Below, one piece after another: positions 15,001 to 37,865 of a stretch of 64,000 bases of DNA. Numbering within the stretch: the stretch's first letter is position 1; the number at the start of each line of letters is the position of its first letter. The DNA is taken from contig NZ_BLZO01000064.1 of the NCBI RefSeq assembly GCF_014132355.1, forward strand, positions 1 through 64,000, given 5' to 3'. The position numbers and the translations under genes were made by a program. The DNA comes from Okeania sp. KiyG1. GTDB lineage: Bacteria; Cyanobacteriota; Cyanobacteriia; Cyanobacteriales; Microcoleaceae. Under the pieces are notes generated by a model. That model was not told where the DNA came from. It saw nothing but the letters and a program-made list of their open reading frames with translations, and made no database searches.

Positions 15001-15097
15001 GAGTTCGGTAATAGGAACTAGGATTTTTCTGTTGTAATAACCACAGATTTTTTTGTTGTGGTGAGAGACAAAATCCTTCTATTTGTTCAGTTTTCAT
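9020..15097 (-). CDS. NRPS: C*-A(Asp)-T-E-C
   Basis: The 2025-residue protein has an N-terminal C-type domain whose HHxxxDG motif is replaced by SLPGLCSDRFS (about 140-150), so it is probably not a normal condensation catalyst. It then has an A domain (about 460-985), thiolation (FFELGGDSILSIQIV), epimerisation (HHLLMDGVSWRI, NYVGQFTQ) and a C-terminal C domain (HHHLLLDGW). The A pocket by GrsA alignment reads DLTKVGHVGK, one change from the published Asp code DLTKVGHIGK, so L-Asp is predicted, converted to D-Asp by the E domain. A Lys-rich insert of about 45 residues lies just before the YRTGDL core (12447-12585). The TauD-type hydroxylase at 16013-17071 fits beta-hydroxylation of this residue, as SyrP does for Asp on its carrier. 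Confidence 0.92.
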   Translation of the reverse strand: MKTEQIEGFCLSPQQKNLWLLQQKNPSSYYRTQGAFLIKGALEKERLTKALQNTVKLQEILRTTFYQLPEMDVPLQVIGDNDLISLEQYDLQQISSLKQLEKLETIFQSMLQQPFNLQKSPILQLSWVQLSPDELILIISLPGLCSDRFSLHHLMTEISNTYAKMERDEEDNEPFQYVDFSEWQNELLNGEETEEGRDYWQQEKLLFNTSLKLPLSSSNNKKLTTNFDTNLLFLNLDDEVNQKIKKVAHQYNISLQDFFLSCFLILLGRMTNQSEVSLELGSDNRQYEELGQSIGLMTKYLPLSTTLDSSLNFATFCQEISQKSQELAKWQDYFTPQIAEFVGNGISFETDLQINKTITVAGISWSLFKEFSCLQAHKLNVCCVQYSNQLEIEFHYNVNCFEVEVIEGWLKHYHILLINAAENPTQRIEDLDILGDEEKEQILFQFNSSLSSDSLANTFHRNCVHHLIETQAQQNPQQIAVVGEGQTLTYHQLNARANQLARHLQKLGVQPDDRVGICVGRSPLMIVGLLGILKAGGAYVPLDPVLPQERLKFMLEDSQAEILITKDYLTSIIPAYLGKIVVLERDREAIVQQSETNINTDVRPQNLAYAIYTSGSTGTPKGVAIEHRQLLNYIQGITPRLNLPSGANYALISTFAADLGNTVIFPALCGGGSLHIISQEHTTDPTALGDYFAKQGGIDCLKIVPSHLRALMTEITNPVQILPKKCLVLGGETTPWELVEQVQKFTPNCQIINHYGPTEATVGVLIYKVTQASQNIGAATVPLGRPLPNTQIFLLDKQLRPVPVGFPGELYIGGDNLARGYLNQSSLKQDRFQTNPFNQKLSVKVKNHKLKLKITRGQWFNREAKFKIKTKELESLEPKKRKFSFSERLYRTGDLARYLPDGNIEFLGRIDNQVKLHGFRIELGEIETRLNNHPSVRETVVLLSEKNTEYKRLVAYVVPRVRPAPKVSELRHYLQETLPEFMIPSRFVFLNRFPLNPNGKLDRRKLLDAETTDPRLETSYIAPKTHQEKILAKIWADVLNVEQVGIEDNFFELGGDSILSIQIVARAKAAGLGFKPIQLFQHSTITDLLKVIQTVEFKPQAGETRGQVPLTPIQHWFFEQSLPNPHHWNMSILLETPPQLQQEHLETAIQHLIEHHDTLRLSFELGEVGWIQSYGEVGEKISCVKVDLSEVGDRELSEILAVEGTKHQSSLNLAAPPLLRFVWFDLGKERTGRLLAIIHHLLMDGVSWRIWLEDFRTAYTQLQQRNAGFELPKKTTSFKYWAQKLTDYAQSDTLVQELDYWLAQRQPFPSSLPQTPSTDLNSVVSTETVTVFLETTETQVALHKVSRLHHTQMNELLLCGLLQTCQRWTGENHLLVELEGHGREDMFEDVDISRSLGWFTTRFPLLLSCEASVSPSQALQVVKETLRQIPNRGIGYGVLRYLSQRPEIREKLSRLPQAEVCFNYVGQFTQENSIFPLSMENRGREKSGIGKHTPSITIDAMVIEGRTRLEWNYNPDLYQRETIETLADDFIKSLKTLINECLESERSYAPSDFPLANLTQSQLDSISQEFSNIADIYPLSPLQQGLLFHSLYSAESNLYCQQKVFTLAASLNQVAFRQAWEIVINRHDSLKTAFIWEKLATPLQVVRSAIALPWREENWCHLSSPQQEEELANYLKNDLEQGFSLSNAPLMRMALFQVSKAQYYLVWSHHHLLLDGWCNGIIMQEVFKVYQTLCDGKEPNLPPSPPYKNYIAWLNQKNEVAAQNFWKQALKGVKAPTKWGIEQTVRALNGDRREYCQEELQLSAETTTNLNTWAKSHHLTINSLIQGSFALLLSRYSGEDDVIFGTTVSGRPPELSGVESMVGLLINTVPVRIIVDPDASLLDWLQQLQQQQIERLEYQYNSLVQIQQWSDVAQGNQLFESFIAVENYPIPISLGEGKLKILEVRSFSRTNYPLSVTVELDSSLLVVMTYDPELFKVMAIRQLLQQLQNLMENLSHYASDRLSQIPLTSTQETRKLLDSFNAELD
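12447..12585 (-). other. Lys-rich insertion within the Asp adenylation domain
   Basis: Between FQTNPF and ERLYRTGDL, where related A domains have about 5-8 residues, this one carries about 45 extra residues rich in Lys, Leu and Thr (for example VKVKNHKLKLKITRG). The reading frame is kept and the domain continues normally. The insert sits on the surface near the hinge to the C-terminal subdomain in known A-domain structures. Its origin (captured repeat or a real loop) is unknown. Confidence 0.6.
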
Positions 15098-15155: not shown

Positions 15156-15977
15156 CTACCTACTTTTAACTCCAATAATAAATTTTTGGTCATCTTGAGA
15201 GAGGGCTAAAAATCCGCCAATGGTAATGCGGGTTTTGTTGCCGGAAATCTCAGCAACTTTGTGCATAATGTTACCCCCTTTAAAAATAATCATATCACCT
15301 GTTTCTGGAACAATTTTTCTTTGGGGACACGAATCGAGGTGTTGCTTAGCTAGTCTGATCTTTTCGGGATCGGTTTCCTGCTTACTCATATGCTCTGGAG
15401 GGAGATAAAAAAGCACTAATTCTCCCCCTTCTTCTGGCTTACTAATCACAATAAAATAACTCAGTCCATTAACTACTTTACCGATACTTTTTAGGTAATC
15501 GTAAGCTGAATCATGTAGAAATTCATTGCCAGTATGGGCAGGAAGTCCCCCTTTTTTCGGTTGTGCAAAGCGAATCGTAGCTGGACTATATGCTTGTCCA
15601 TTTTCTTTTGGTAATTCAATGTTCCGACCTCCTGACATCTGACTAAAAATGTTCTCAAGTTTAGTTTCAAAGTCAATTTTAAAGATGGTTGTCAGCCCTT
15701 CTCTAAAGCGTTGAGCGTTTTGTAAATACTCTGAGCGATCTTTGCCAATTTCGATGATAACTTGACCTAACGTTTGTCCATAGCGAACCTCATGAGTTGC
15801 TAACTTTTGCATCTCCAATTGCTGTTGAACATTGAGCATTTCTTCTAAGGAGAAGACTTGTTTAATAACAATCCCTTCTAATTCTTCTTGATAAATCTGA
15901 TTAATTCCATCAGGATATTGATTTATTGAATCAGCAGCTACGGTAATCCATTTGTTTTTAGTTACTTGTGTAGTCAT
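15156..15977 (-). CDS. WelO5-like Fe(II)/2OG halogenase-type enzyme (HxG motif)
   Basis: A 273-residue jelly-roll Fe(II)/2-oxoglutarate enzyme. The metal site reads His148-Thr-Gly150-Asn-Glu-Phe with distal His239 (IMHKVAEI) and 2OG-binding Arg250. In ordinary hydroxylases the position of Gly150 is Asp or Glu. In WelO5 it is Gly166 (with His164 and His259), which opens a site for chloride. The N-terminal INQYPDGINQIYQEELEGIV segment and the LSYF..PEEGGEL and TRITIGGFLALS segments also fit the WelO5 family as I recall it. It sits 58 bp upstream of the Asp-loading NRPS, so it may act on the peptide or the acyl chain. Halogenation is predicted, not shown; some family members could hydroxylate. 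Confidence 0.75.
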   Translation of the reverse strand: MTTQVTKNKWITVAADSINQYPDGINQIYQEELEGIVIKQVFSLEEMLNVQQQLEMQKLATHEVRYGQTLGQVIIEIGKDRSEYLQNAQRFREGLTTIFKIDFETKLENIFSQMSGGRNIELPKENGQAYSPATIRFAQPKKGGLPAHTGNEFLHDSAYDYLKSIGKVVNGLSYFIVISKPEEGGELVLFYLPPEHMSKQETDPEKIRLAKQHLDSCPQRKIVPETGDMIIFKGGNIMHKVAEISGNKTRITIGGFLALSQDDQKFIIGVKSR

Positions 15978-16012: not shown

Positions 16013-17071
16013 TTAGTTAGAGTAAAGTTGTCCCATTCCCACAACGACTTGTCGTTGCCCAACATAAGGCATTCGTCCATGACAAGTTAACATATTATCT
16101 AACATGAGAATATCCCCTGATTGCCAAGGAAAAATAGTCATTTCTTGTTGATAACAGTGACGAATTTCAGCGACGGTCGAGGAGTCAATAGCAGTTCCAT
16201 CACCGTAATAAGCATTACGGGGTAATTCTTCGGACTGATACTCACTCAAGAACAAGTCTCGGACTTTTGGTTCTAAGCTGGATATATGGAATAAATGCGC
16301 CTGATTAAACCAAATTTTGTCCCTAGTTTGGGGATGAATAGCGATCGCTTGACAGACTTGACGAGTTTTTAAGCGATCACCTTCTTTCCATTCCCAATCA
16401 ATTCCCTGCTGACGACAGTAATTTTCCACAACTGATTTCTGGTTTGTCTGGAAGACATTTTGCCAGCTTAAATCTAAACCATCCCCATAGTTTCGCACAT
16501 ACATAATCTTTTTTTCCTCAAATCGTGAAACAATTTGAGGATCGAGTCGTTTTAAAACCAGGCGACTGTCTGCTATTGGCGTAGCACCACCTTTTGAGGC
16601 TGCTTTTCGGCAAAAAAAAGCGATTTTTAGTGGCCAGTTGCGACTGTAGGCCATTTCATTATGCAGGGGAATAGTTTGATGGGCCGGATATTCTGTTGAG
16701 GTGTGAATTTTCCCCCTAACTTGCGATCGTGGAGTGGAACGATAGGTATAATCTAATAAGTCTCCCCAGATTCCCTGAATTAATTGCTCAAATTTTGCTA
16801 TGTCTTGGAGTCCAAAATTACGCCATAAAATGGCTCCATATTGATCTAAATTCTTCTCAATAAATTCTCTATTTTTTTCTACCCAACTGACTAAATTTAA
16901 GCCTTCTACCCTTGGTTTCACCACTAGAGGAAGAGATTGCTTTGAGGGCAGAAAATGAGAGGTTTCAATTAGGCTATCCTGGTTAATTTTAACAGGTTTA
17001 CGTTTGACAAGTGGTTTTTTTTTCGGTTCTAATTTTGTAATTGTTTTTTGGTTCATTTTTGTTTTTGTCAA
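16013..17071 (-). CDS. TauD/SyrP-like Fe(II)/2OG hydroxylase, probable Asp beta-hydroxylase
   Basis: A 352-residue TauD-family protein with an intact facial triad: His137-Asn-Glu139 (IPLHNEMAYS) and distal His331 (TCHGRMPY), with Arg340 well placed for the 2OG carboxylate. It therefore keeps the carboxylate that the halogenase-like enzymes of this locus lack, and should hydroxylate. SyrP-type members act on Asp bound to an NRPS carrier domain, and the next NRPS downstream carries an Asp code, so beta-hydroxy-Asp is the natural prediction. The first 45 residues are basic and low in complexity (KKKPLVKRKPVK), and the true start could be further in. It lies 35 bp upstream of the halogenase-like gene, in the same operon. 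Confidence 0.82.
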   Translation of the reverse strand: MTKTKMNQKTITKLEPKKKPLVKRKPVKINQDSLIETSHFLPSKQSLPLVVKPRVEGLNLVSWVEKNREFIEKNLDQYGAILWRNFGLQDIAKFEQLIQGIWGDLLDYTYRSTPRSQVRGKIHTSTEYPAHQTIPLHNEMAYSRNWPLKIAFFCRKAASKGGATPIADSRLVLKRLDPQIVSRFEEKKIMYVRNYGDGLDLSWQNVFQTNQKSVVENYCRQQGIDWEWKEGDRLKTRQVCQAIAIHPQTRDKIWFNQAHLFHISSLEPKVRDLFLSEYQSEELPRNAYYGDGTAIDSSTVAEIRHCYQQEMTIFPWQSGDILMLDNMLTCHGRMPYVGQRQVVVGMGQLYSN

Positions 17072-17134: not shown

Positions 17135-17683
17135 TTACTTAGATATAATTTTTTTTTGAACTTCTGTTTTTACTTGCTCTGGTATATGCTTGAGAACTTT
17201 ACGATAACCAAATTGGTAAACATATAGATAAAGTCCTATTTTCCTCCAAAGCCAATGCAACCTATCAAATTCTTCGAGTAAATTAGCCATATCCAAGATA
17301 ATTAGATTTAGCCATTGAGGATAATTAATCATTATTTTTTCATTGGTAAAACGATTAATAATAGGAATTTTATCATCGGGAACAACACGCTTTTGAAAAT
17401 ACTTTCTTCGTTGTGAAATGCAGTATAAATAAACAATTTCTTCTGCTTCTTCGCCAATTGCTTTCTGTAACTCATCCCTTTGCGAAAAGTTCAAAACATG
17501 CTTTTTTCCAGTTCCATCCGTACCATAAAAAGAATGAAAATATCCAGCCAAACAAAGATTTTTGTGGCATTTCCAAGTTTCTAATAAATTTCCTGTTCCC
17601 ACTAAATGATCGTACAAAGTTACCTGAGTATGAGGGATGGTATTGGTTTGATAAGATTTCAGCAAATTCAAAATATTTTTCAT
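17135..17683 (-). CDS. DUF6817-like protein
   Basis: A 182-residue protein with the pattern LYDHLVGTGNLLETWKCHKN..CLAGYFHSFYGTDG. This resembles the HD-like DUF6817 family, in which paired His residues (here DHL and FHSFYG) may bind metal. No enzymatic role is established. It lies between the PKS (59 bp away) and the TauD hydroxylase (63 bp away) on the same strand, so it belongs to the operon and is probably a tailoring or accessory protein. The family assignment rests on remembered motif similarity. Confidence 0.6.
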   Translation of the reverse strand: MKNILNLLKSYQTNTIPHTQVTLYDHLVGTGNLLETWKCHKNLCLAGYFHSFYGTDGTGKKHVLNFSQRDELQKAIGEEAEEIVYLYCISQRRKYFQKRVVPDDKIPIINRFTNEKIMINYPQWLNLIILDMANLLEEFDRLHWLWRKIGLYLYVYQFGYRKVLKHIPEQVKTEVQKKIISK

Positions 17684-17742: not shown

Positions 17743-20700
17743 TTAATTTACCTCATCCTGCTTCAATGTTTTTCGTTGGACTCGTTTTAACTTTTGTTGC
17801 GCAATTGCTTGGAATTTTTCTGCTTTTTTCTGTTGTGTTTGCTGCTCCAGTTCCTTAAAATGTTGGGATATATCATCTAAAGAAATGTCTGGTTGTTGTA
17901 CCACAATTGGCAGAATAGTAGTAAATTTAGCTATCCAATTATCAATCGTTTTTGATTTAAATAAATCAGCATTATAAGTGGCAGTCAACCTCAACTCACC
18001 CTTAGTTTCAGCTAAATTCCAAGTTAAATCTCGTCGGGCTGCTCCAGAGAAATTTAGGACTGGGTTAACTTCAATATTGGCAAAATTTAATCCTTCTCCA
18101 AATTTATCTAAATTAAATTGAACATGAATTAACGGTGGCCGACTAGGATCTCGTTTTAGGTTCAATTTTTGGAGTAATTGGGAACAGGGATAACTTTGAT
18201 GTTCGTAAGAATTTAATAACTCTTGCTTAACAGTTTTTAGATATTCAGAAAATGTCTCTTTTTGGCTACGAAAACGCACAGGCAAGACATTAACACAATA
18301 GCCTACCAGATTTTTCCACCCCCAAGCCAGTTGTCCAGCAGCAGAAATCCCGATCGTAATATCATTTTCTTGAGATAAATGACGTAAAAGTAGGGTAAAA
18401 ACTGCCAACAAAGTCATAAATAAAGTACAACCTTGCTGATTACTTAATTTTTCCAGTTTATCCTTGATTTTAGCCTCAATTAGACAATCTTGCTGTTGAC
18501 CTCGATAGGTTTGGATCTTAGGGCGAGGAAAATCAGTAGGTAAATCTAACTCGGGAATTGTATCGCTAAATTGCTTTAACCAATAAACCTCATCTTGTTC
18601 GAGCTTAGGGTTAATTTCGCCCATAATCTTTACATAATGGCTAAATTGTCTTGGTTTCCCCAATTTAAGCTCAATTCCTTGGGTTTGAGCATTATAAAAC
18701 CTTGCCAACTCATTGACAATCACATCAACTGACCATCCATCAGAAATAATATGATGGATGGTTAAAACTAACCAATGAACTTCTGAGGCGATTTTGACAA
18801 TTTGTACCCGTAATAGGGGAGAATTGCTGATTTGAAAAGGTTCACAGACGGTTTTATCCAACCAAGCAGCGATCTCCTCTTGCTCTGTGTCAGTAAAATC
18901 CAAATAAGGGATATCCATTTCCCATCTTGGCAAAATTTCCTGCTTTTCTCCGCGATCGTCAATTAAAATGCGTAAAGCTTCATGGCGATTAATAACTATC
19001 TGAATAGCTTGATTTAGAGCAGAAATATCTAACTTTCCTTTAAATTCCAACCGTAGAGATTCATTGTAAGCAATTGATCCCTCCTCTTGAAGTTGAGCTA
19101 GTGTCCAAAGTTGTTTTTGAGCTTGAGTTAAGGGAATTTTATGGGGATAACGGGCGATAATAACAGCTTGTTGATTAATTATTGGGTTATTTTCTCCTGG
19201 CAAGGCAACTATATCGGTAAAACCCGTTTCTTGTAGAATGTTTTGCCATTTTTCCACTGATAAGAGAGGATAAGCAGGACGCAATTCCAGATCGGAAAAT
19301 TTCCACCATCCTTCCGTTAAACCAAAAATTAAATCTAACCAGCGTTGGGGAGATGTACCTTCCATTAAAATTACCATTTCCCCTGGAATTAATAGCTGCT
19401 GAATGTTTTGTAAGGTCTGATGGAGATTAGCGGTACTATGGACAACATTAGCTGCAATAATAATGTGATATTGTGCTTTTCCCAGTTTCTGGACAGCGGG
19501 AGCTTGTTCAATGTTTAAACTGTCATATTCTACAAAAGGATAGTCTTGAAACTTCTGTTTTGCCCGATTCAGAAACAGGGGAGAGAGATCGGTAAAATAA
19601 TATTTAACTAATTCTGGGGGTAGCTCGGGTAAAACATAAGCGCTTGTCCCCCCTGTACCTGCACCAATCTCTAAAATTTTCACGATTTCACCCTCAGAAA
19701 CCGATTCTAAGGCAAGGGAAACGGTTTTCTGTACTAGAGTATTTAAGAAACGCGCCACCGTTGAGGTTTGATATAATTCTGTTGCTAAGGTAAAGTCTCC
19801 TTGGGGAAAAATTAACTGAAGGGGATTAATTTTTCCTTGTAATACCTCTGCTAAGGCTGAAGCGCAACGATTCAGTAGAGTCAATTCTGCTTTTAAAGAG
19901 GGATATTGCGCCAAAATTGTCTCTGCTAACCTTTGAGGGTTCATTGATTCTGGTGAGTTAATAACTTCCCAATGATGGGGAGTAAGCCTTAAGATATCTT
20001 CCTCTACCATAATTTGTAGCAAACGCTTTAATAGGGAATAATGTTGAGGAATTATCCCTAAGTTTTGAGCGATCGCCTCATGGGTAAATTGCTCTCCTGG
20101 GCGAAATTTAACCCCTAATTTAGCAAAAGCAGCGATAACATAGGCAAAACTCAACTTCTCCAGTTCAAAAAATCCTAGACAGTAATTTTCTAACTCATAC
20201 TGTTTACAGAGATTTTCCATCTCAGGGAGCAAGCGAGTATTAATAACTTTAGGGGTTAATAAATTAACGCTGGATTCAGAAATAATCGGTTGAGCAGTCT
20301 TTACAGAGGGAAAAAAACCTCCTTGTCGCAATTCCATCACACTTTCTTGAATTGCTCCAATCAAGAAATCAATATCTTCATCGCTGTGGGCTGTAGAGAG
20401 GAAACAATTACGCCCTTCCCAAATATAAACCCCTTTCTCTAATAAATGATAATATAGTAAATCTATATTCGCACTGGAAGCAAAACGAAACAATGAGCCA
20501 AAATAGACAATCTCTAAGGGAATTTGTTCAGTTTCAAAATAATGATTTAAGGTATCGGCTAATCTAGCAGTACGCTCATTTAACTCTTGTTGGAGGGTTT
20601 GCCCCTCTTTTTTGAGATATTGTAAAACACCACGAGCCGCAGCCATTCCTAGATGATTTTTGTTGAAAGTTCCCGCAAAAAAAGTTTTTTCGGCCCTAGG

Positions 20701-23700
20701 ATAAGAATTATCCCCATAATTCCACTCCCCACCATCAAGGGCATCCAGATAACGCCCTTTTCCAGCCACAACCCCAATTGGTAATCCTCCTCCCACAATT
20801 TTCCCATAGGTAACTATGTCTGCTTCAATTTCAAACCATTTTTGAGCGCCCCCTGGATGGATGCGAAACCCTAGCAACACCTCATCAAAAATCAGTGGTA
20901 TCTGGGCTGCTTCAGTAAAAGCACGTAATTTTTGCAAAAAGGCTGTCGGTTTTACACTAGGGTTGCGACTTGGTATCGGCTCAACTAAAACCCCCGCTAA
21001 TTCCTCTGCGTTACGGGATAAAATCTCTAGGCTATCGGGATTATTATAATCTAACACCAGCAAGTCTTTGACGGCATTCTCAGCAATTCCAGCAGCCATA
21101 GGTACAGCTTCAGTTGTCCCTGAGACTCCCAGGGCTAAAACCCCATCAAAATGTCCATGATAGGCACCCGCAAATAAAGCAATTTTACTCTTTCCAGTGA
21201 CAGTACGGGCTAATCTTAGAGCTGTCATCACAGCTTCTGTACCAGAATTACAAAATGTTACCCTTTGTACTCCGGTTAAATCTTGAATTAAATGGGCAAC
21301 TTCAGCTACTAAATTAGATTGAGGACCAATTTGTAAACCTTTCTCTAGCTGTGCAGTGACGGCTTGAGTAATAATAGGAGCATTGTGACCAAATAACAAT
21401 ACCCCAAACCCCATCGTAATGTCGAGATATTTGTTGCCATCGATATCCCAAAAGTGAGATCCTTGCGCCCTTTCTCCCACAATAGGATAAAGCATTTCTT
21501 TGATTGAGGGTCTAAATCCAGCTACTGCTCGACTATCTGCAAGAATAGGACGTGATGAAGCAGCTCTTGCTTTTGATTTCAGTGTTTTTACACTATAACG
21601 GCTAATTAAATCATCAAGATGCTGTTGTTGTTTAGCAGTCAAATTTTGGGGCTGAGTTAGCTTACGAGGAGATGTTTTTTTTTCCGTTTCTTCTCTTTTC
21701 CCATAGGAAAAACTGTTCATATCTCGCGCCGGAGGTATTGGGGAAGGCTGAGATGCTGTTAGCGGTTTACCTTGGAGTAACGCTAATTGCTCAGACATAA
21801 CTTGTAATTGTTGGCTGATAATTCTCTCTAGAGCCGTTTCTGCTAAAGTATTATGATTGACAGGAGAAAGAGAAGTATCGGGAATTAGAGGTTTCTTCTC
21901 GCTAATTTCTGGGGTAGGAGTATCTGTTGGGGGTGAAGTTGGTAATTGTTGAGCTATATGGCTTCCTAATCCTTCTATCGTCGGCCAAACTTCAAATAAT
22001 TGATTAACCTGAATTTTCAGTCCGTACTTATTTTCGATCACTTGTATTAAATCCAATAAAACGAGGGAATCAGCACCCATTTCTAGGAAAGGCGCGGTAC
22101 AGTCCACCTCAGCTATGGGAATTTTCAGGAAATCACTTACCAAAGTCGATAATTCTTTGATTATCTGTTGCTGATAGCCATTGTTGAGAGCAGTCTGATC
22201 TATAGTCGGGTTTGAGCTGTGGTTTTCTAACATAACATTTTCGGAATCTTCAAGCCAGTAAGGTTGACGTTGGAAGGGATAGGTCGGTAACGATAAGCGA
22301 TGACGAGAATAATCGCTGTCCCAACCTTTCCAGTTGACAGCGACTCCCTCAATGTATAACTTTCCTAAACTGGAGGCTAAAATTTGCCAATCTTCTTGTC
22401 CCTCTACCAGAGAGGGTAGCCAAGTTCCTTCTCCCCTGCGTTGACCTAGTTTGGAGAGAATCGGTTTTGAGCCAATTTCTACAAATAATCGGTATTTTTG
22501 CTGGAATAAGGTATCTATTCCCTCTTTGAAGCGTACTGGATTTCGGGTTTGTTGTCGCCAATAATTGCCTTCGGGAATTTTGTCATCGGGGAAAAATTCT
22601 CCGGTTAAGTTAGAAATCAGAGAGATTTGGGGCTTCTTAAAGGAAATTCCCTCGATGCTTTCTTGCCATTGTTCCAACATCGGTTCAATTAAGGGGGAAT
22701 GAAAGCCATGGGAAACATTTAAGGGGCGGTTTCTAAAGCCTTTTTGTTCTAAAATCTCAACTACTTTTTCAACTGCCTGTTTTTCCCCAGAAATAACTGT
22801 ATTTTCGTCACTGTTTAAGGTGGCGATCGCTACTCTTGAAGAAGCTACCTGAGCTAATACTGCTTTTACTTGGTCTTCTTTGGCAAAAATAGCTACCATT
22901 TTGCCCTTCTGGGGTAAATTATCCATTAACTTCGCCCTAGTGGCTATCAATTTTAATCCGTCTTCCAGACTAAACACCCCAGCCACACAAGCAGCCACAT
23001 ATTCCCCTAAACTATGACCGATAACTGCATCTGGTTTAATCCCCCAAGAAATCCACAGTTGAGCTAGGGCGTATTCCAGAGCAAACAAAGCTGGCTGAGT
23101 GTAAGCTGTTTGATGAATGATATTTGCCTCTGAATCAGCCGAATCAAGTATTTTGATTAAAGATTTACCCAAATAAGGGAACAAAATTTCATCACATTGC
23201 TCCAGAAGCTGGCGAAATCTGGGTTGAGTTTCGTACAGTTCTTTACCCATTCCACTGTACTGAGAACCTTGTCCAGTAAAGAGAAAAACAATCTTTGGCG
23301 GTTTACGGCGAGAAAACTTCCCTTGAATCAAACCCGGGCTTTCTTGTTTGTTACTGAATTTTTGCAGTAATTCCTGAATTTGGTTACTATTTTCGCCCCA
23401 AAGAGCCAATCGATGGGGAAAATGTGAGCGTCCGGTATTGGCAGTAAAACAAATATCCCCTAGACTCAGATGGGGCTTTTCTTGCAACCAAGAATAATAA
23501 CGTTGGGCTAAGACTTGTAATGCGGGTTCGCTTTTTGCCGATAGGCTCAATAAGTGTTGGTTACGGTCAGGAAAACTTGATAAAGTTGCCTTTTCTGGTG
23601 CTTCTTCAAGAATAATATGACAATTTGTTCCTCCAAAGCTGAAACTACTCACCCCTGCTACCCGTTTTCCAAGTATGGGGTTCCAAGGTAGATTTTTTGT

Positions 23701-24905
23701 AGGGATAAAAAAGGGCGTATCAGCAATTTCTATGTAAGGATTTAACTTATTTAAGTGTAAGTTGGGAAAAATCTGCCGTTTTTGTAGAGATAGAATCACT
23801 TTAATAATTCCCGCAATTCCCGCAGCATTTTCTAAATGCCCGATATTGGTCTTAACTGAGCCGACAGCGCATTTATTTTCCGGTGTTCGTCCTTCTGTCA
23901 AGACAGCTTGAATGGCTCTTATTTCCACAGGATCTCCTAATGGAGTACCTGTCCCGTGTGCCTCTATATAACTGACTGTTTGAGGAGAAATTCCCGCTCC
24001 CTTTAAGGCTTCGCTGATCACTGATTGCTGGGCAAAACCGTTCGGTGCTGTTAGTCCATTACTAAATCCGTCATGATTCACTGCTGAACCTCTGATGACG
24101 GCTAAAATTCGATCGCCAGATTCCACCGCTTCAGATAATCGTTTGAGGACAATCATCCCACAGCCTTCTCCTCGCACATAACCGTCAGCTTTCTCATCAA
24201 AGGTTTTACACCGTCCTGACCCTGACATCATTCTGGTCTGAGAGAAAGTAATCGTCATATCTGGTAAAATCATCAAACTGACTCCCCCAGCCAAAGCGAG
24301 ATTGCTCTCTCTGTTTTGCAAACTTTGACAGGCTAAATGAACAGCTACTAGGGAAGAAGAACAAGCAGTTTCCACTGCTAAGGATGGCCCATGAAAATCC
24401 AGAAAATAGGAAACACGGTTAGCTGCAAGGCTTAAGGTTAACCCCGTCCCGTTATAAGCATTAATTTTCTCCCAATCTCGACATAATAATCGCCCATAAT
24501 CAAAATTACCAATGCCGACAAAAACCCCTGTTTTACTACCTTTGAGGGAATTTGGGTTCACCCCTGCATCTTCCAAAGACTCCCAAGACACCTCCATTAC
24601 TAAGCGTTGTTGAGGATCGATGCGAGGTGCTTCCTTGGGGAAATATTGAAAAATGCTGGATCGAATTCTGCCACTTGCTCTAAAAACCCCCCCCACCGCG
24701 TATTCATTTTACCAGGGGTTTGTGGATCTTGATGGTAGAATTGAGCCACTGACCACCTCTTGGCTGGGACTTCGGTAATGGCATCAACTCCATTGACCAA
24801 AAGTTGCTCAAAGGTGGCAGGATCGGGAGACTTGGGAAAGCGACACCCCATCCCGATGATAGCAATAGGTTCTCTAGAGAGTTTCTGACTCATGGCTTCG
24901 ATCAT
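17743..24905 (-). CDS. Hybrid PKS: KS-AT-ACP-aminotransferase-methyltransferase-C (one frameshift)
   Basis: The start frame (24905, MIEAMSQKLSREPIAIIGMG; an internal ATG at 24893 is equally good) breaks at NISPR, and the rest (EAPRIDPQQRL...) continues in another frame to 17743. One extra G at 24633-24634 restores about 2387 residues. Domains: KS (about 10-430; TACSSS, HGTGTPLGD, NIGHLENAAG), malonyl-type AT (about 540-840; GHSLGEY, SHGFHS), ACP (MGADSL), class III PLP aminotransferase (about 1110-1530; DEVLLGF, YGKIVGGG), C-methyltransferase (EIGAGTGGT), C domain (HHIISDGWS). There is no KR or DH, so the beta-keto group should be transaminated to a beta-amine, as in microcystin and microginin synthetases. 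It starts 11 bp after the Hal-ACP gene. Confidence 0.9.
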
Positions 24906-24916
24906 TGAACAGTAGC

Positions 24917-26350
24917 TTATTGAGCTAATTTAGAGGAAAATGTGGCAATGTTAGGATATTCATAAATTAAGGCGGGATTGAGGGTAGTTCCTAACCAATC
25001 TCCCAGGTCGCCAATCATCCCAACTCCTTCTGCTGAGGATAATCCATAGCTTTGAAAAGAACTCTCAAGGTCTATTTCCTCTGCCTCTAGATCTAAGAGT
25101 TCCGCTAAATAGGAAATCAACCAAGCTTCAATGTCAGAAGTCGTAATTTTTTTCTGATCCCCAGAAATTTGACTATTTGATTCTACAGAGGTATTTTTGC
25201 GTTTAAATGTCTCTACAAGTTGACTGTATCGTGTCATTGCTTCTTCTGCACTCAGGCCACGATATTGATTCCAAGCTTCCCACTGTATATACTTGCGAGG
25301 ATGAAGGATTGGGTTAGGCTTGCTTTGATCACAATCTCCTGTGATAGACTGTTTTTCTAACCCGTAAATTTCTAGTTGTCGCTCGTCTTCTGGAATATTA
25401 ACCTGACCAAACCGGACTTGATTTAAACTGTTTTGAAATTGAACTTCCGTGTCGCTTAAATCATGGGAGTCTCTCACCAAATTATGTCCATAATCATCTT
25501 TTCCTGACACCAATATACAATAATGTCGTTTAATATTATGTCCGTTTTCATCAATGAATTCTCCTTGCCAACGGTAGGGGTAAACTTGAGTGCTAGGACG
25601 CACATAACGCCCAATAATTCCTAAACGACGACGTTGTGAACGGTTAGGAAAAGAACTGTGCATCACTTTCTCGGTAAAAATAATTGCTTTTCCTGCTTCC
25701 ACCGGAACTGTTTCCAAATCCCAATCATTCTCATCAAAATCGTAGTCAAGGGAATATTTTTGTTCCCTCTGCCAAACTGTTTTATGAGCACTAATTCCGG
25801 CAAAAACTCCCTCTTCCGCTGGGCGACTACCTGCTAACATTTTAAATAGTTTCTGATGGGAACCATTAGCAAACCGCATACAGCCATTTTCTATATCTGC
25901 ATCGTCCAAGGCTACCCAAACTGTTAAATTTATCGGTTCTTCATCATCTTGATAAACTAGGGTTTTTTTCTGATAATCAATGTCACTAGAAGTGTAATAT
26001 TCTTTTGCTTGATGCCATTTTATTTCTCCTTGACCAGGCAATTTACAAAAGATATTGGTGTACCACAATAACAAATCCTCTCCAGCAATTTGTTGAATAT
26101 GTTTAATCAGTTCTGTGTCTTCAAATAATTCCCTAATTGGTTGATGAAATAGATGGTGATCTCTAGGGGTTTCCAGATTAAATACATTATTATAAAAACC
26201 GAGAATTTCCTGCCCGTTTGCTTCAACAATTAAACGGCTGTTGGCTTCTAAACACGCTTTAACAGCAGCAATTTTTTCCGGTGAAAATATCTCTAAAGGA
26301 CCTACCCATCCCTTTCGAGCAAAATGGTTAAGCTGTTCTGATGTTAGCAT
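24917..26350 (-). CDS. SyrB2/HctB-like halogenase-ACP fusion (HxA motif)
   Basis: A 477-residue protein. Residues 1-300 are of the phytanoyl-CoA dioxygenase (PhyH) fold. The metal motif is Trp-His113-Gln-Ala115, with distal His231 (KVMHSSFPN) and a cluster of Arg at 240-242. In PhyH hydroxylases the motif is HxD. Ala at the third position is the hallmark of SyrB2-type Fe/2OG halogenases (His116, Ala118, His235 in SyrB2). Residues 405-477 are an ACP of the FAAL-partner type (SYGLSSAEGV, with Ser439 the likely Ppant site and Ser in place of the usual Asp before it). This halogenase-ACP layout is that of HctB from hectochlorin biosynthesis, which chlorinates a tethered fatty acyl chain. It overlaps the upstream FAAL gene by 23 bp. 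Confidence 0.82.
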   Translation of the reverse strand: MLTSEQLNHFARKGWVGPLEIFSPEKIAAVKACLEANSRLIVEANGQEILGFYNNVFNLETPRDHHLFHQPIRELFEDTELIKHIQQIAGEDLLLWYTNIFCKLPGQGEIKWHQAKEYYTSSDIDYQKKTLVYQDDEEPINLTVWVALDDADIENGCMRFANGSHQKLFKMLAGSRPAEEGVFAGISAHKTVWQREQKYSLDYDFDENDWDLETVPVEAGKAIIFTEKVMHSSFPNRSQRRRLGIIGRYVRPSTQVYPYRWQGEFIDENGHNIKRHYCILVSGKDDYGHNLVRDSHDLSDTEVQFQNSLNQVRFGQVNIPEDERQLEIYGLEKQSITGDCDQSKPNPILHPRKYIQWEAWNQYRGLSAEEAMTRYSQLVETFKRKNTSVESNSQISGDQKKITTSDIEAWLISYLAELLDLEAEEIDLESSFQSYGLSSAEGVGMIGDLGDWLGTTLNPALIYEYPNIATFSSKLAQ

Positions 26351-28964
26351 CTTGTAATTTCGTCTCTGGTGATTTTATAGAGGAAGTAAACAAATTTAAC
26401 TGATTATTGAGAAATTGCTGGCGACAGTTTTGACGCTGAATTTTACCACTAGAGGTTTTGCTTATAGTTCCGTGTCTGATTAAAGCCATCTGATATACTC
26501 GTAAATCATGTTCAACAGCCACTGCTTCCTTAATTTTCTGCTCTACTGTTGCTAGATCCAAATTTTGCCCATAACTACGTTCTACTTCTTGGACAATCAC
26601 TAGACGTTCCTCTCCCTTTACCTCCACTGAAAATGCTGCACCACATCCCGAACGCAATGCCGGATGGCTGTTTTCCACAGTCAGTTCAATATCTTGGGGA
26701 TAATGATTGCGGCCTTCTATAATAATCAAGTCTTTCAGTCGTCCAGTCACAAATAATTGTCCCTTGTAGAGAAAGCCTAAATCTCCTGTTCTCAAAAATG
26801 GTCCTTCTCCTGTATCCCTAAGATAAGCTTGAAAGGTTTCACCAGTGGCCACCGGATTATTCCAGTAACCTTGGGCTACTGTCATTCCACTAACCCAAAT
26901 TTCTCCAATTTCTGTGGGGTTACAGGGGGTTAAACTCTCAGGATTGATAATTTTGACTTGGGTATCAATTTCACTGTATCCACATCCCACTTGGATTTGT
27001 GACTTTAAACACCTATTTTCGGCTATTACTAGGCGATTTTCGGACAATGCTGCTGATTCAATCTCTATGGATATGGGTGCATCCTGTTGCCTTACCGCAG
27101 CTACTTTTAATGTGGCTTCAGCTAATCCATAACCAGGACAAAAGACTTGTTTTTTGAAGCCGTAGGGAGCAAATGTTTTGGAAAATTTCTCTATTGTCTC
27201 GGCTCTTACTGGTTGCGCTCCGTTTAGTGCCATTTTCCAGTTTTTTAGGTCTAATCCCTTCCCTTGTTCTGGTTTAAACTTGCGCACACATAAGTCATAG
27301 GCAAAATTAGGCGCAGCACTATGGGTTGCCTGGTAACGAGAAATTATTTTCAACCAGTTTAAGGGTTTCAACAAGAAAGATAGGGGAGACATCAAATAAC
27401 AACTACACCCTACTAATAAAGGAGTCAAAATCCCATACACTAATCCCAGATCGTGAAAAGTAGGCAACCAAGAGACAATTTTACTATCCCGAGCGTGATT
27501 CCAACCTACAGCTAGATCCCTACAATTAACAAGTAGATTTTCATGGCTAACCATCACCCCTTTGGGATTACCTGTTGATCCCGATGTGTACTGTAGTAAG
27601 GCTAAGGTATCTTGATTGATTTTAGGCGGTTGCCAATCCTTTCGAGGGACACTGGAAATGCTGCTGGTGTCCAACCACTTTAATTGAGCAAAATCAGGAT
27701 TTTGATCCTGCCAACGAGCTTTTTGTTGCCATAAAGCTGTGGTTGTCAGGGCAAAAGTCGCCTCAGCATCCTTGATAATAGACTCTAATCGATTTAGGGA
27801 TTGATTAGGACGGGGAGGATACCCAGGAACAGCTATCATTCCTGCTGCCAGACAGCCGAAAAAGCCAATTATAAAGTCTAAACCAGGAGGATATAACAAC
27901 AATACTCGCTCCCCAGGAGAACCTAACTGTTGTAATTGTGTCGCGATCGCCTGAGACTGCTGGAGTAAATCTTGGTAACTGAGACTTCCAGATACAGTTA
28001 CATCATCCTGAAGAAAGGTATAAGCCTTCCGATCAGGATTTTCTGTCGCTCTTTGGTGTAAAATATCTAATAAAGTGGACAAAGCTGCTTTCCTCAAACT
28101 TTGCTTAACTCCAGTAATAAACTTGTTCCCGATTTTGAGAAAACGCCACAAACCCCCAATGGTGATGCGACGACGAGAACCTTTGACAGTGGAAACCCGA
28201 TGTAAAATGCGACCGTCATCAAAGATGATTAAACTACCTGCCTTGGGCTTAACCCGCATTTGTGCATAATCTTCCATGACATCAGCAATTAATTTGCCGT
28301 TCACTGTTCCATTTCTCTTGCGTCCACCGTTTTCTGTGTCTGTCCACTCAGTTTCATCCCACTCTAAATCATAAAGGATTAACTCCCCGCCGATTTCTGC
28401 TTCACTTAGAGTTAGATTATAACCGAGATGTGCCTCTTTGTTGATTTGATTTCCTAAGTGTTTGTAACCAGGGGTGCAGTATACAAACTGATTGCCAAAA
28501 TGCCAGCCCATAAATTGTCCTTCTTCTAAGACTCGAATGGTGCTAGGGGTGTAATCAGAGCCATTTGCTGCTTTGGGTATTGTAACTTCTCTTCCCCCAG
28601 ACATCATCCCTAACACTTCTTCCAAGCGTGTCTCGAAGTCTGTTCCCCCCTGAAAAATATGGCGACAGTATTCCCGATATTCAATCGCTTCTTGGCAATA
28701 TTTTTCGATGTTGGTTTCGGAAACATACAATGCTGGTCCGTAAATCAGAATCTCTCCGAAGGGAGACCCTTCAAATGGTCCTTTTTGATTGAGTTGACTC
28801 ACCACTTGGTCAACATCTTCTTGAGAAAGAAAGTTTTCGATGATTAAACCATCAATTTTGCGTTCACAGATATCTTTAATGCCATCGGGATAGTGACGAG
28901 CCAGATCCTGAGCATCTATTTCTACTAAATTGTAGAGGGTTTTTGAAGCTGCAATTGTCATCAT
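26328..28964 (-). CDS. WelO5-like halogenase-type domain fused to fatty acyl-AMP ligase
   Basis: An 878-residue fusion. Residues 1-285 are an Fe(II)/2OG enzyme with His155-Phe-Gly157-Asn-Gln-Phe, distal His255 (ILHRVSTV) and Arg264-266 then ITIGG. The carboxylate ligand is replaced by Gly, as in WelO5. Residues about 297-870 are a FAAL: YTSGSTGNPKGVMVSHENL (ATP binding), SWLPTFHDLGLVYGI and LRTGDLGF, with the FAAL-typical YPPGLDFIIGFFGC and VPGYPPRP. The FAAL should activate a free fatty acid and pass it to the ACP of the next gene. Fusing the two activities suggests that halogenation acts at chain loading. The start at 28964 (two Met codons) has no strong ribosome binding site. Confidence 0.87.
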   Translation of the reverse strand: MMTIAASKTLYNLVEIDAQDLARHYPDGIKDICERKIDGLIIENFLSQEDVDQVVSQLNQKGPFEGSPFGEILIYGPALYVSETNIEKYCQEAIEYREYCRHIFQGGTDFETRLEEVLGMMSGGREVTIPKAANGSDYTPSTIRVLEEGQFMGWHFGNQFVYCTPGYKHLGNQINKEAHLGYNLTLSEAEIGGELILYDLEWDETEWTDTENGGRKRNGTVNGKLIADVMEDYAQMRVKPKAGSLIIFDDGRILHRVSTVKGSRRRITIGGLWRFLKIGNKFITGVKQSLRKAALSTLLDILHQRATENPDRKAYTFLQDDVTVSGSLSYQDLLQQSQAIATQLQQLGSPGERVLLLYPPGLDFIIGFFGCLAAGMIAVPGYPPRPNQSLNRLESIIKDAEATFALTTTALWQQKARWQDQNPDFAQLKWLDTSSISSVPRKDWQPPKINQDTLALLQYTSGSTGNPKGVMVSHENLLVNCRDLAVGWNHARDSKIVSWLPTFHDLGLVYGILTPLLVGCSCYLMSPLSFLLKPLNWLKIISRYQATHSAAPNFAYDLCVRKFKPEQGKGLDLKNWKMALNGAQPVRAETIEKFSKTFAPYGFKKQVFCPGYGLAEATLKVAAVRQQDAPISIEIESAALSENRLVIAENRCLKSQIQVGCGYSEIDTQVKIINPESLTPCNPTEIGEIWVSGMTVAQGYWNNPVATGETFQAYLRDTGEGPFLRTGDLGFLYKGQLFVTGRLKDLIIIEGRNHYPQDIELTVENSHPALRSGCGAAFSVEVKGEERLVIVQEVERSYGQNLDLATVEQKIKEAVAVEHDLRVYQMALIRHGTISKTSSGKIQRQNCRQQFLNNQLNLFTSSIKSPETKLQDANIRTA

Positions 28965-29087: not shown

Positions 29088-29411
29088 CTACTTCTTACCA
29101 ACAACAGACCCTAAGTGACAAGTAGTGTTACAATAGGCATCCATCATGGAAGTATACATTGGATCGCTTTCATATTTAGCTTTCATTTCTCGTACATATT
29201 GCTTAACATCATCAAATGTTACATCAAATCCTTGACTTCTTGCTGCTTCAACCAGTTTATCCATCACAGCCATTCCTTTAGCTTCTCCTGATAAGGAACG
29301 GTCATAACCTGCAACAATTCCCGCCACAGCAGGATTAGACTTTTTAGCAGATTTGCCTTTTGGTGCTGTGGTAATGCTTTGGATAAAATCGTTAAATGCT
29401 TGAACAGACAT
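29088..29411 (-). CDS. Small Nif11-like peptide, candidate RiPP precursor
   Basis: 107 residues. The N-terminus (SVQAFNDFIQSI) and central helix plus turn (VMDKLVEAARSQGFDVTFDDVKQYV) resemble Nif11-type leader peptides, though a Gly/Lys/Ser-rich insert of about 35 residues separates the two halves. The C-terminus holds the only two Cys residues, in YCNTTCHLGSVVGKK, with Thr/Ser beside them, as expected for a lanthionine-forming core. There is no GG cleavage motif. A GAGGGAAC ribosome site lies just upstream. It is the first gene of the PKS/NRPS strand, and a class II lanthipeptide synthetase lies at 34586-37865. It could instead be an unrelated small operon protein. Confidence 0.5.
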   Translation of the reverse strand: MSVQAFNDFIQSITTAPKGKSAKKSNPAVAGIVAGYDRSLSGEAKGMAVMDKLVEAARSQGFDVTFDDVKQYVREMKAKYESDPMYTSMMDAYCNTTCHLGSVVGKK

Positions 29412-32462: not shown

Positions 32463-33257
32463 TTGGACATGGAACAGAAATGGATTACAACTGATATTAA
32501 TTCTCTAGGGAATTATTCTGACGGGATTAATCAAATTTACCAAGGTAACATTGATGGGATACATATTAAGCAGGTTTTTTCTCTAACAGAGATGGAGGTA
32601 GTTAAAGAAAATTTAACTCAAAAACAAGCATCTTTTAAGCATTTACTCTCCACTCAAAAGTATGGAAAATTACTTGGAGCTATTCTCCCCGCCAGTGGCA
32701 ACGATCGGAGCGAATATTTTCAAGACGCAGTTTTGCTCAGGAAGGTGTTAAAGGAGGTTTTTGAGCCGCCGGGTTACGAAGCAACAATTAAAAGCGTTTT
32801 TACGAAGCTCTCAAATAATCGAAAAGTTGCTCCTGCTCACCAAAACGGGAATATTTATTCACCTGCTCTAGTGCGATTTACTTATCCCAATCAAGGAGGA
32901 ATATCCTTACATAAAGGTAATGAATTTATCGACATGGAGGGATTTGAAGGGTTGCACAAAATTGTGAAACTTAAAGATTGTCTAAGTTATTTTCTGGTAA
33001 TTGACCCGCCAGAAGCAGGAGGAGAGTTGATTTTATATGATGGTTTACCAGCAGAATTGACTACTCCTAAAAAAGAATTAGACTTGGAAAACTGTCAGCA
33101 AAGACGTTATCATCCCCAGGCGGGAGATTTAACTATTTTTCATGGAGCCTGTATCTGGCACGCGATTTCGGAAGTTAAAGGAAATAAGATTCGTTACAGT
33201 ATTGGAGGATTTGTGGGTTTGTCTCACGAGGATGATACTATCTATTATTGGGCATAA
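32463..33257 (+). CDS. WelO5-like Fe(II)/2OG halogenase-type enzyme (HxG motif)
   Basis: 264 residues with His150-Lys-Gly152-Asn-Glu-Phe, distal His233 (IWHAISEVKG) and Arg244, so again no carboxylate ligand to iron. The protein ends DTIYYWA, and WelO5 as I recall it ends in a near-identical IYYWS. It shares the YSDGINQIYQGNIDG start motif and the CLSYF...PEAGGEL core with the enzymes at 15156 and 26328. An AAGGA ribosome site precedes ATG 32463. It is on the opposite strand from the PKS/NRPS operon and reads toward the lanthipeptide synthetase, so its substrate could be either product. Halogenase activity is inferred. Confidence 0.73.
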   Translation: MDMEQKWITTDINSLGNYSDGINQIYQGNIDGIHIKQVFSLTEMEVVKENLTQKQASFKHLLSTQKYGKLLGAILPASGNDRSEYFQDAVLLRKVLKEVFEPPGYEATIKSVFTKLSNNRKVAPAHQNGNIYSPALVRFTYPNQGGISLHKGNEFIDMEGFEGLHKIVKLKDCLSYFLVIDPPEAGGELILYDGLPAELTTPKKELDLENCQQRRYHPQAGDLTIFHGACIWHAISEVKGNKIRYSIGGFVGLSHEDDTIYYWA

Positions 33258-33691: not shown

Positions 33692-34150
33692 ATGAATCAG
33701 ATAAGTAAATTTAAAGTGTTGCCAAAGTTGGTAGGAACTTGGGAGGGAAACTGGATAGCTTTAGATCCGACAGGAAAAGAGCGTTATCAGTTTACCAGTA
33801 TATTAAAACAAAAAATTGCAAACAATCAATGGGTACAAACTAACGAAAATACTTATTCTGATGGGAGACAAGAAACGCTTCATTTTTTTGGTAAAGCAGT
33901 TGGAGAAAATACCTTGCTATTGGAAAGCCCAGATATCCATTATTATGACTTTCTTATGTTGGTATCAGAATTAGGTGAAAATCTGATTATTATTAATGTC
34001 ACCCATAAAATAACGGGGATACAATTAACAGCAGAAACTATTAACTTAGTAAGTCCAAATGAACGCATCCGTACCTTACAACAATTTAATACTTCTGATG
34101 GTAAATTACGAGGTTTTACCCTTGTTATAGAGAAAAAAATAAGTAATTAA
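33692..34150 (+). CDS. Small protein of unknown function, possible lipocalin-like fold
   Basis: 152 residues. A GTWEGNW motif near the N-terminus (residues 14-20) followed by alternating beta-strand-like segments is reminiscent of lipocalin-fold cyanobacterial proteins such as DUF3598 members, but the match is too weak to name. There is no signal peptide and no Cys residue. It sits between the halogenase-like gene and the lanthipeptide synthetase on the same strand and may be an accessory protein of that block. Confidence 0.5.
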   Translation: MNQISKFKVLPKLVGTWEGNWIALDPTGKERYQFTSILKQKIANNQWVQTNENTYSDGRQETLHFFGKAVGENTLLLESPDIHYYDFLMLVSELGENLIIINVTHKITGIQLTAETINLVSPNERIRTLQQFNTSDGKLRGFTLVIEKKISN

Positions 34151-34585: not shown

Positions 34586-37500
34586 ATGATAATTGAAACC
34601 AATATATTATCAGAAATTAGTTTAAAAGCAAGCTCATTATCAGAAAGATTGAATCAGTTAAGCTCTTGTTTTATATTGTCAAGTAATGAAACAGAAATCA
34701 TTAATCAACGCTTAGAACATTGGTGTCAAATAATCGGGGATGGAGATTGGAGAAAATTGAAAAAACGCCTTGAGTGGGATAATTTAACCCTGGAAGAAAT
34801 CAAACCATTCCTAGAAAATGGAAAAATTAGTACAGAATTTTCTCTTCCGCCTTGGACAGAAATTTTAACCCTTTGGGTAGAAACAACAGCAAAGTTTAAT
34901 TTGAAGCGAGTTACAGAGCAGTTTCCTTCCTTCCCCATCGATCCGAATAATCCCCTTCCCTTTGAAGAAATTTGGTTCTCTGCAGTTATTGTCGCCCGGA
35001 AAAAACTCTGTGAACGTCTAGCCATACCTACTATATCTTTTGAGCAAATTCCCTTCACCTTACTCTCTGCCAGGGCCTACCAAAACCTAGAGAGAATGTT
35101 GCTTCAACGGCTAGTTAACATGGGAGGAAAAACTCTTTACCATGAATTTTGCCAATTTCGCCCGCCAATCTACAATGGACTGAATTTCTTTCTAGAACAA
35201 TTCGATTTATTGACGCAATTAGACCTTACGCCTCCCGAAACAACTTATTATCAAGCTTTTGTTAAAAACTTCTTACAAGATGGCTTACTGACTTTATGGA
35301 AAAACTATCCTGTTTTAGCCCGATTAATGGTAACAACCCTAAATTTTTGGGTAGAAGCTACAGCAGAATTTATCCTTCGTTTGAAGGACGATCGTAGTAC
35401 AGTACCTCAACTGCAAGGTAAAATTAAAGAAATTCAAGGTTCCCTCTCCGATTTTCATAATCGGGGACGTTCCGTATTCATTTTAACCTTGGAATCGGGG
35501 CAAAAAATAATCTATAAACCCAAAAACATCGGTTTAGAAGTGGCTTACAATCAACTGCTAACCTGGTGTAATCAACAGCAGTTTCCTCTCCCCTTTAAAA
35601 CTATCGATCACTGCGATAGCGATACTTATGGCTGGGTGTTAGACTATATAGAACAAGAACCCTGTGCTGATGCTGCAGCAGCACAGCGCTTTTATCAGCG
35701 AGGGGAATGCTACTTTGCTTGCTGTATGTCTTGGGAGGTAATGACTGTCATTATGAGAATTTAATCGCTCATGGCGAACATTTAGTCCTAATCGATCTCG
35801 AAACCTTGATGCACCCCCAGGCAAAAACAATCCCCGGTTCTATCCAAGAGAGCATTGATGGCGATCGCCAGTTATGGGATTCAGTATTGCGAACAGGTTT
35901 GTTACCTCGTTGGGATTTTAGCCCAGATAACGCGATTGCTTACGATATTAGTGGGTTAGGGAGTATCACTGCTCAAAAAGCCCCTTATTCTTTACCCAGA
36001 TGGAAATTTATCAACACAGATGAAGTTTATCTCCTTGAAGAACGGGGAACTTTAGCTGAACAAGCTAACATTCCTCAATTAAATGGAGTAGCATTAGCTC
36101 CCGAAGACTATGAAGCGGATTTAATCACGGGATTTACCCAAATGTATCAGTTTTTAGGGAAAATAAGCAAGCACTCTTAGATCAAAAAGGATTACAAACC
36201 ACTCTTCAGTTTCAGAAAGTAAGATTTATTTTCCGTGCTACCTACGTTTATGAAGCACTACTGCAAAAAACCCTCGCACCTGAGTTCCTGAAAAATGGGG
36301 TAGATCGTAGCATTGAAATTGATATTTTGAGCCGTACCTTTCTTAATGGGGAGGAAAAACCGACAGCTTGGCCAATCTTATCTGCAGAATTAGCTGCTAT
36401 GGAACAACTTGATATTCCCTATTTTGGTAGCACAGCTAGCAGTCACGCCTTAACGGTGGGAGTCAGACAACCTATTAAAGACTACCTCAGCCCCAGCTAT
36501 GAGCGATTTATAGAGCGCTTACAAGCCTTAAGCGATTTGGATTTAAGACAGCAAGTTGCTATGATTCGGGGAAGTTTTGCAGCAAGATTTGCCAAAAATA
36601 AACCATTATCCTCCATACCCTCTTTACCTTCTCCCTCTTTACCTTGTTTAACTTCTGACCAGTTTCTGAATGCAGCAAGGCAAATCGCTACTGAGATATG
36701 CGAGCGCTCCATAGTAGATCGATTTGGGAATGCTCGCTGGTTAGGGTTAAGCTATGTTGACCATAGTAATCGCTTTCAATTTCAACCATTAGGGTACAGT
36801 CTTTATGATGGCAATTGTGGGATCGCCTTATTCTTGAGTGCGTTATTCCAAATAACTAGAGAAGATTCTTTTCGTACTCTAGCACTTCAAGCGTTAACTC
36901 CTTTAAAAGGACTGTTAAATCACTCTAATTCTGCCTTGACTTCAAAATTTGCCCAACAAATCGGAATCGGTGGCGGAACGGGAATTGGTTCTATTATTTA
37001 TGCCTTGGTTAAGATTAGCAAATTTTTAGGAGATGAAACTGTTTTAGAAGATGGGGTTAAAATGGCTCATTTTCTCACCTCGGAGAGGATAGAATGCGAT
37101 CGCCAATTAGACATTATCGGTGGAGTTGCGGGAGCTATGTTGGGTTTATTAAACCTTTATCGCGAGACAGGAGCTACTAAGGTTTTACAACAAGCGATTG
37201 ACTGTGGGCAGATTCTTATTAAGAAGCGAATCAGCTTTGAGGGTAAGCCTCTAGCTTGGAAAACTATCACGGAGCAGCCCCTCACAGGCTTTTCCCATGG
37301 TGCGGCAGGGATTGCTTATGCCTTAGTGCGACTGTATGAAGTGACGGAGGAGCCAGAGTATTTAGATATTGCTAGGGAAGGTATAGCCTACGAAAGGTCA
37401 GTTTTTTCCTCTACAGTGCTTAACTGGCCTGATTTTTTAACCATGCCACCTACTTTTAAAGTTATGTGGTGTCATGGGGCTGCTGGTATTGGATTAGCGC

Positions 37501-37865
37501 GATTAGGCGGGTTAAGAATAGAATCGAGTGCAGCTATCCGTCAAGAGCTAGAAATTGCCTTAGAAAATACTCAAAAATACATGGGACAGAGTGTAGATCA
37601 TCTTTGTTGCGGTCATTTTGGTCGTATAGAACTGTTATTAACTGCAGGACTTGTTCTCAAACATCCCCAGTTGATAGACATAGCATGCCAAAAAGCTACT
37701 CATTTAGTGCAACAAGCGCAGCAAAAAGGGAGTTATCAACTTTTGGGTAACCTATCGACTGTCGCCTTTAATCCTGGTTTCTTTCAGGGAATGGCCGGAA
37801 TCGGCTATCAATTACTTCGCCTCGCCTATCCGGCAAGATTTCCAGTTGTCTTGTTGTGGGATTAG
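34586..37865 (+). pseudogene. Class II lanthipeptide synthetase (LanM), ProcM-like, two frameshifts
   Basis: Three overlapping frames together give a full LanM of about 1094 residues. The N-terminal dehydratase (34586-36330) contains GNDCHYENLIAHGEH and LIDLETLMHP. The C-terminal LanC-like cyclase (to 37865) contains FSHGAAGIAYALV, WCHGAAGIG and LCCGHFG. The zinc ligands are thus Cys in WCHG and Cys-Cys in CCG, the three-Cys set typical of ProcM-like cyclases, instead of the usual Cys-His of CHG. The breaks are one missing G in G4 at 35702-35705 and one missing A in the A4 run near 36163. Both are simple homopolymer deletions, so the gene may be intact in the cell. ProcM-like enzymes modify Nif11-type precursors. 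Confidence 0.87.

Follow-up and report, generated by a model that had tools for sequence, protein, structure and literature searches.

The 64,000-nucleotide window analysed here (Okeania sp. KiyG1, contig NZ_BLZO01000064.1, positions 1 to 64,000) contains a minus-strand open frame of 878 aa at 26328-28964, in which residues 14-273 match the Pfam WelO5 family (PF22814, 294.5 bits) and residues 303-701 match AMP-binding. The initial annotation described it as a WelO5-like enzyme fused to a fatty acyl-AMP ligase (FAAL). Is this a genuine fusion, and what might the WelO5-like part do? We found that the frame almost certainly covers two genes, the WelO5-family gene W1 and a FAAL gene, and that the fusion is very likely an artefact. 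We are fairly confident that these adjoining genes were merged by loss of one homopolymer base in the window contig, most likely a consensus error, and that W1 acts on its own as a tailoring enzyme in a pathway with FAAL, HctB-like, polyketide synthase (PKS) and nonribosomal peptide synthetase (NRPS) proteins.

A genome search identified a second contig of the same assembly (C82) that carries the same gene, and there the WelO5-like frame stops before the FAAL. C82 and the window contig (C64) have 47,081 bases in common at 99.97% identity; they differ by 2 mismatches and by 12 indels of a single base each. When all 14 differences were listed, each of the 12 indels was found in a single-base run of 3 to 8, the shorter run being in C64 in 8 cases and in C82 in 4. 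One indel lies at the joint. The 878-aa frame is continuous because C64 is one base shorter than C82 in the homopolymer at 28152-28157. From about residue 272 up to the FAAL start the window frame is an out-of-frame reading, and the W1 stop codon persists in the window DNA in another frame. In C82, W1 has 286 aa and ends ...RRRITIGGFVAFSQNREQVYYWS-stop, in agreement with the WelO5 C-terminus in the alignment; the FAAL begins shortly past this stop, in a different frame. The PF22814 profile (cut-off 27) matched the C82 copy to its last position (330.3 bits, positions 2-277 of 277) and the window copy over positions 2-264 (297.9 bits). The match to WelO5 in the PDB (5j4r) was 149.3 bits for the C82 copy and 126.6 bits for the window piece with its out-of-frame tail.

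Further frames differ between the contigs. The PKS is one frame of 2396 codons in C82 and is divided in C64 into 2322 codons and a separate 101-aa frame, whilst LanM, a lanthipeptide synthetase, is one frame of 1096 codons in C82 and three pieces in C64. The C64 frame of a second WelO5-family gene, W2, is 3 codons longer, and the canonical YYWS end is found only in C82. At position 45672 the C64 frame is the longer (556 codons vs 388 and 192 in C82), at 46550 the C82 frame is (191 vs 138), and at 34139 the two barely differ (158 and 155). We infer consensus errors in both contigs as the most likely cause of this pattern.

Orthologs of W1, with approximately 59-91% identity, were found in seven other genomes: G614, G172, G629, G638, G789, G774 and Mastigocoleus testarum BC008 (L041, counted once with G731, whose contig agrees in length and position). 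Our searches covered overlapping samples of 386 genomes from the phylum, 389 from the order, 62 from the family and 217 from the family of G638, and also a scan of genome contigs, where M. testarum was the one relative among 37 stretches with a pattern. A plasmid collection gave no match. In all seven genomes a separate FAAL gene lies 3 to 97 bases past the W1 stop, followed by an HctB-like gene and a PKS; in G774, W1 and FAAL are each split over frames. The fusion is thus unsupported, because it rests on a one-base difference in homopolymer length and the genes are apart in C82 and in every other genome. Removing it matters, as a false enzyme fusion would otherwise invite expression work.

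No other FAAL with an N-terminal WelO5 domain was found in the phylum sample. Seven other matches there lie in frames of more than 400 aa, and these were rejected as fusions: at E 0.001 no AMP-binding match was found in any of the seven, L029 and L031 being covered only in part. Six of them hold a weak WelO5-like stretch, five of those six with a RimK-like ATP-grasp match. In L024, L026, L028, L029 and L030, of about 570-610 aa, a weak WelO5-like (2-oxoglutarate oxygenase) stretch at the C-terminus accompanies a weak RimK-like ATP-grasp match. The accessible literature, mostly outside subscription papers, likewise yielded no WelO5-FAAL fusion, as the initial annotation had said.

The same annotation was right to place the enzyme in the WelO5 lineage. 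The profile match, the search of PDB sequences, the tree and the fold prediction leave virtually no doubt that W1 belongs to the WelO5 family, and the structure prediction proposed for comparison with WelO5 gave that fold. The residues picked out earlier (H155-F-G157-N-Q-F, H255 and RRRITIGG) are all present in the window frame; H155, G157 and H255 align with WelO5, and there is no carboxylate at the ligand position. The claim of a missing carboxylate ligand holds for this genome (G000), on both contigs, and for G614, whose W1 is 91% identical. It fails for the other six of the eight orthologs, which have Glu in the WelO5 Gly166 column (the G774 residue was taken from the second of its two W1 pieces). 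Nor does the Gly substitution by itself define the WelO5 type, as had been stated: iron halogenases in general have Ala or Gly at the His-x-Gly/Ala position, according to an excerpt of a review (PMC8407142).

In the WelO5 Ser189 column, W1 of G000 and of G614 carries Gly, that of G172 carries Ala and the remaining five orthologs carry Ser. By alignment, this second-shell serine is therefore missing from both HxG enzymes. In WelO5 it hydrogen-bonds the hydroxyl after hydrogen abstraction and so prevents hydroxylation, according to a quantum mechanics/molecular mechanics study cited in a consulted portion of PMC13244439. Judged by these residues, halogenation by W1 is likely but not safe, because the halide site would be open yet the aid of Ser189 is missing. 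Of the hapalindole-type alkaloid halogenases WelO5/AmbO5, the comparison took in WelO5, which agrees with W1 in its Pfam family, in the predicted fold, in HxG and the distal His, and in the C-terminal TIGGF..FS....YYWS. However, W1 is 34% identical to WelO5, forms a separate clade, has Ser189 replaced, lies in a lipopeptide-type rather than an alkaloid cluster and has some orthologs with a Glu ligand.

The phylogeny of the ligand was studied with the Gly166 column removed. The first tree included L016, L045, L056 and L078, four distant rows that were left out of later trees, as were the two G774 W1 pieces. The HxG pair grouped with the HxE enzyme of G172 (support 97/96), with M. testarum next (85/77) and G789, G638 and G629 outside (83/90). 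A single change in the ligand column was counted among the seven W1 rows, and four over all 33 rows. A single HxE clade was not quite rejected by the AU (approximately unbiased) test (p = 0.056), and going from GAA/GAG to GGC needs two changes. The tree suggests, rather than proves, that the W1 ligand changed from Glu to Gly. Same-position orthologs that differ at the residue thought to decide between halogenation and hydroxylation provide natural pairs for testing, such as this genome or G614 set beside G172 or M. testarum, and complement engineered mutants. Elsewhere, the column has Gly in WelO5 and most rows of W2 and W3, a third family member; Asn (HKNND) in three W2-type rows (L094:961-1767, L075:8186-9043 and L096:1980-2798); Glu in the distant G436 row; and D (L016), E (L045) or H (L056, L078) in the other distant rows.

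The earlier naming of the W1 neighbour as a FAAL is probably right. The protein matches AMP-binding at 233.5 bits, and its best NCBIfam match is an NRPS/PKS model (first 569 positions, 508 bits), followed by fatty-acid-AMP ligase models at 480, 439 and 423 bits, all below curated cut-offs. The HctB-like protein has PhyH, ACBP and PP-binding domains, an HxA motif aligned with SyrB2, and a match to the TIGR01762 chlorinating enzyme model of 123.4 bits, under the cut-off of 226.3. HxA was seen in five HctB-like genes (five of the eight were read). As in the hectochlorin proteins HctA/HctB, a FAAL is followed by a three-domain HctB-like protein; HctB was compared by domain order (halogenase-ACBP-carrier, from the part consulted of PMC6218459). 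The hectochlorin system differs from this cluster, which has an additional WelO5-family gene before the FAAL, an aminotransferase in the PKS, W2/W3 and LanM.

We propose that the FAAL would activate a fatty acid and load it onto the carrier domain of the HctB-like protein, whose HxA domain would chlorinate the chain as HctB does. The PKS would extend, aminate and methylate the chain and the NRPSs would add residues. In W1, His155 and His255 would bind iron, the third place being open to halide because of Gly157. W1 of this species and G614 would more likely halogenate a pathway intermediate, whilst the orthologs in the six HxE species would more likely hydroxylate. The chances that W1 of this genome halogenates appear even, and it is less likely than not that its substrate is the acyl chain. 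The earlier idea of a lipid-directed halogenase is weakened because its main argument, the covalent tie to the FAAL, is gone; the conserved adjacency alone remains. The word 'halogenase' is absent from the text of a FAAL review (PMC11837247).

The cluster also has a ribosomal side. An open reading frame (ORF) upstream of W1, a candidate Nif11-like precursor of a ribosomally synthesized and post-translationally modified peptide (RiPP), is kept in seven of the eight W1 genomes with an invariant C...CH.G end. Its match to the Nif11 leader model TIGR03798 is weak (19.6 bits here and 24.3 in G614, cut-off 32.3); with Pfam Nif11, G614 reached 23.4 vs 23.8 and there was no match here or in G629. Within the order sample the precursor occurred in five genomes, and these are also the ones with W1 orthologs of at least 60%. 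The scan scored 12 candidates in most listed genomes; its model was built from W1-type genomes, and the telling part is the 384 genomes without a precursor. The model had no match in the M. testarum assembly (given as 38% contaminated), though W1 is present. Seven of the eight genomes have LanM in the cluster, and in G614, G172, G638 and G789 no other match exceeds the family cut-off. In the M. testarum cluster stretch W1, W2 and W3 are present and LanM was not found, its LanM matches being on other contigs.

The regular presence of LanM together with a dedicated precursor points to a mixed RiPP/lipopeptide pathway, and a single product from both halves is our hypothesis. Lipolanthines and goadvionin are reportedly RiPP-lipid hybrids, and they resemble this cluster in having lipid-making and lanthipeptide genes together. 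They differ in that here LanM and a Nif11-like precursor stand beside FAAL, PKS and NRPS genes, with the joint product presumed. A more ambitious view, which we hold to be rather improbable, is a hybrid pathway conserved in cyanobacteria that joins a class II lanthipeptide (LanM and the Nif11-like precursor) to a halogenated FAAL/HctB/PKS/NRPS lipid chain with three WelO5-family enzymes, in which the change of the W1 ligand from Glu to Gly within the clade remade a hydroxylase into a halogenase in place.

Several points weigh against our account of two genes and a freestanding halogenating W1. It is conceivable that the shorter run belongs to a real strain variant, C64 and C82 may be either two real copies or one region assembled twice, and the FAAL call rests on models all below curated cut-offs. 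With Gly in place of Ser189, W1 could hydroxylate or do both, and HxE at the same gene position in six of the eight genomes means that the pathway can do without chlorination by W1. A true recent fusion, arising by a one-base deletion in one genomic copy and expressed as a joint W1-FAAL protein, would fit a frame open over 878 aa and contigs that are real copies or strains. However, the copies differ by 12 indels against 2 substitutions, with every indel in a homopolymer, and the PKS and LanM frames are likewise interrupted in C64, where the end of W2 is shifted as well. Such a fusion would swap the conserved W1 C-terminus for out-of-frame residues, and none of the other seven genomes has it. 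We regard it as highly improbable and retain two separate genes.

The function of a separate W1 is less firmly settled. That it is a hydroxylase or mixed enzyme despite HxG is a substantial minority possibility, favoured by Gly at Ser189 in both HxG orthologs, by HxE in the other six and by the extensive hydroxylation that WelO5* yields with some substrates (PMC8766452, in the section consulted). Against this, the ligand position is free of carboxylate in two genomes and on both contigs here. The ribosomal LanM peptide is an unlikely substrate of W1, W2 and W3 in place of the lipid or NRPS product. In its favour, the precursor sits immediately upstream of W1 and shares its distribution in the order sample, and LanM is usually in the cluster, but M. 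testarum has all three enzymes with neither a precursor match, in its contaminated assembly, nor a LanM in the stretch read.

Table 1. Features of the W1 cluster, with positions in the window.
Feature	Position	Strand	Remarks
NRPS C-A-PCP-TE	2488..6705	-	
NRPS A-PCP piece	6702..8333	-	
NRPS, three condensation, one adenylation and one carrier domain	9020..15097	-	
W2, second WelO5-family enzyme (HTG)	15156..15977	-	last residues out of frame in window; YYWS end in C82
TauD-family iron/2-oxoglutarate (Fe/2OG) enzyme	16013..17071	-	
DUF6817 protein	17135..17683	-	kept in G614, G172, M. testarum
PKS KS-AT-ACP-aminotransferase-methyltransferase-condensation	17743..24905	-	two frames in window, one 2387-aa frame in C82
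HctB-like: SyrB2/CytC3-type halogenase domain (HxA), ACBP, carrier protein	24917..26350	-	
FAAL, separate gene	26328..28097	-	start TTG 28097, 589 aa as in G614; TTG 28082 possible
W1, WelO5-family Fe/2OG enzyme (HxG)	28105..28964	-	286 aa in C82; window frame broken near 28152-28157
Nif11-like RiPP precursor candidate, ends YCNTTCHLGSVVGKK	29088..29411	-	107-aa ORF upstream of W1
W3, third WelO5-family enzyme (HKG)	32463..33257	+	
LanM lanthipeptide synthetase	34586..37865	+	three frames in window, one 1096-codon frame in C82

The PKS aminotransferase is of class III, and the PKSs of G614 and G172 are alike. Both W2 and W3 fall in PF22814. An ISAzo13-type transposase (DDE_Tnp_ISAZ013) at 30321-31562 on the minus strand lies between the precursor candidate and W3. 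Further WelO5-family genes, 49-61% identical to WelO5, were found in L097, L098, L099 and L103, those in L098 and L099 adjoining NRPS genes. In G789, which also has an HxE W1, the gene L101:7470-8342 shows full identity with the PDB chain of WelO5 across the portion compared; a welwitindolinone-type producer thus seems to carry the W1 cluster.
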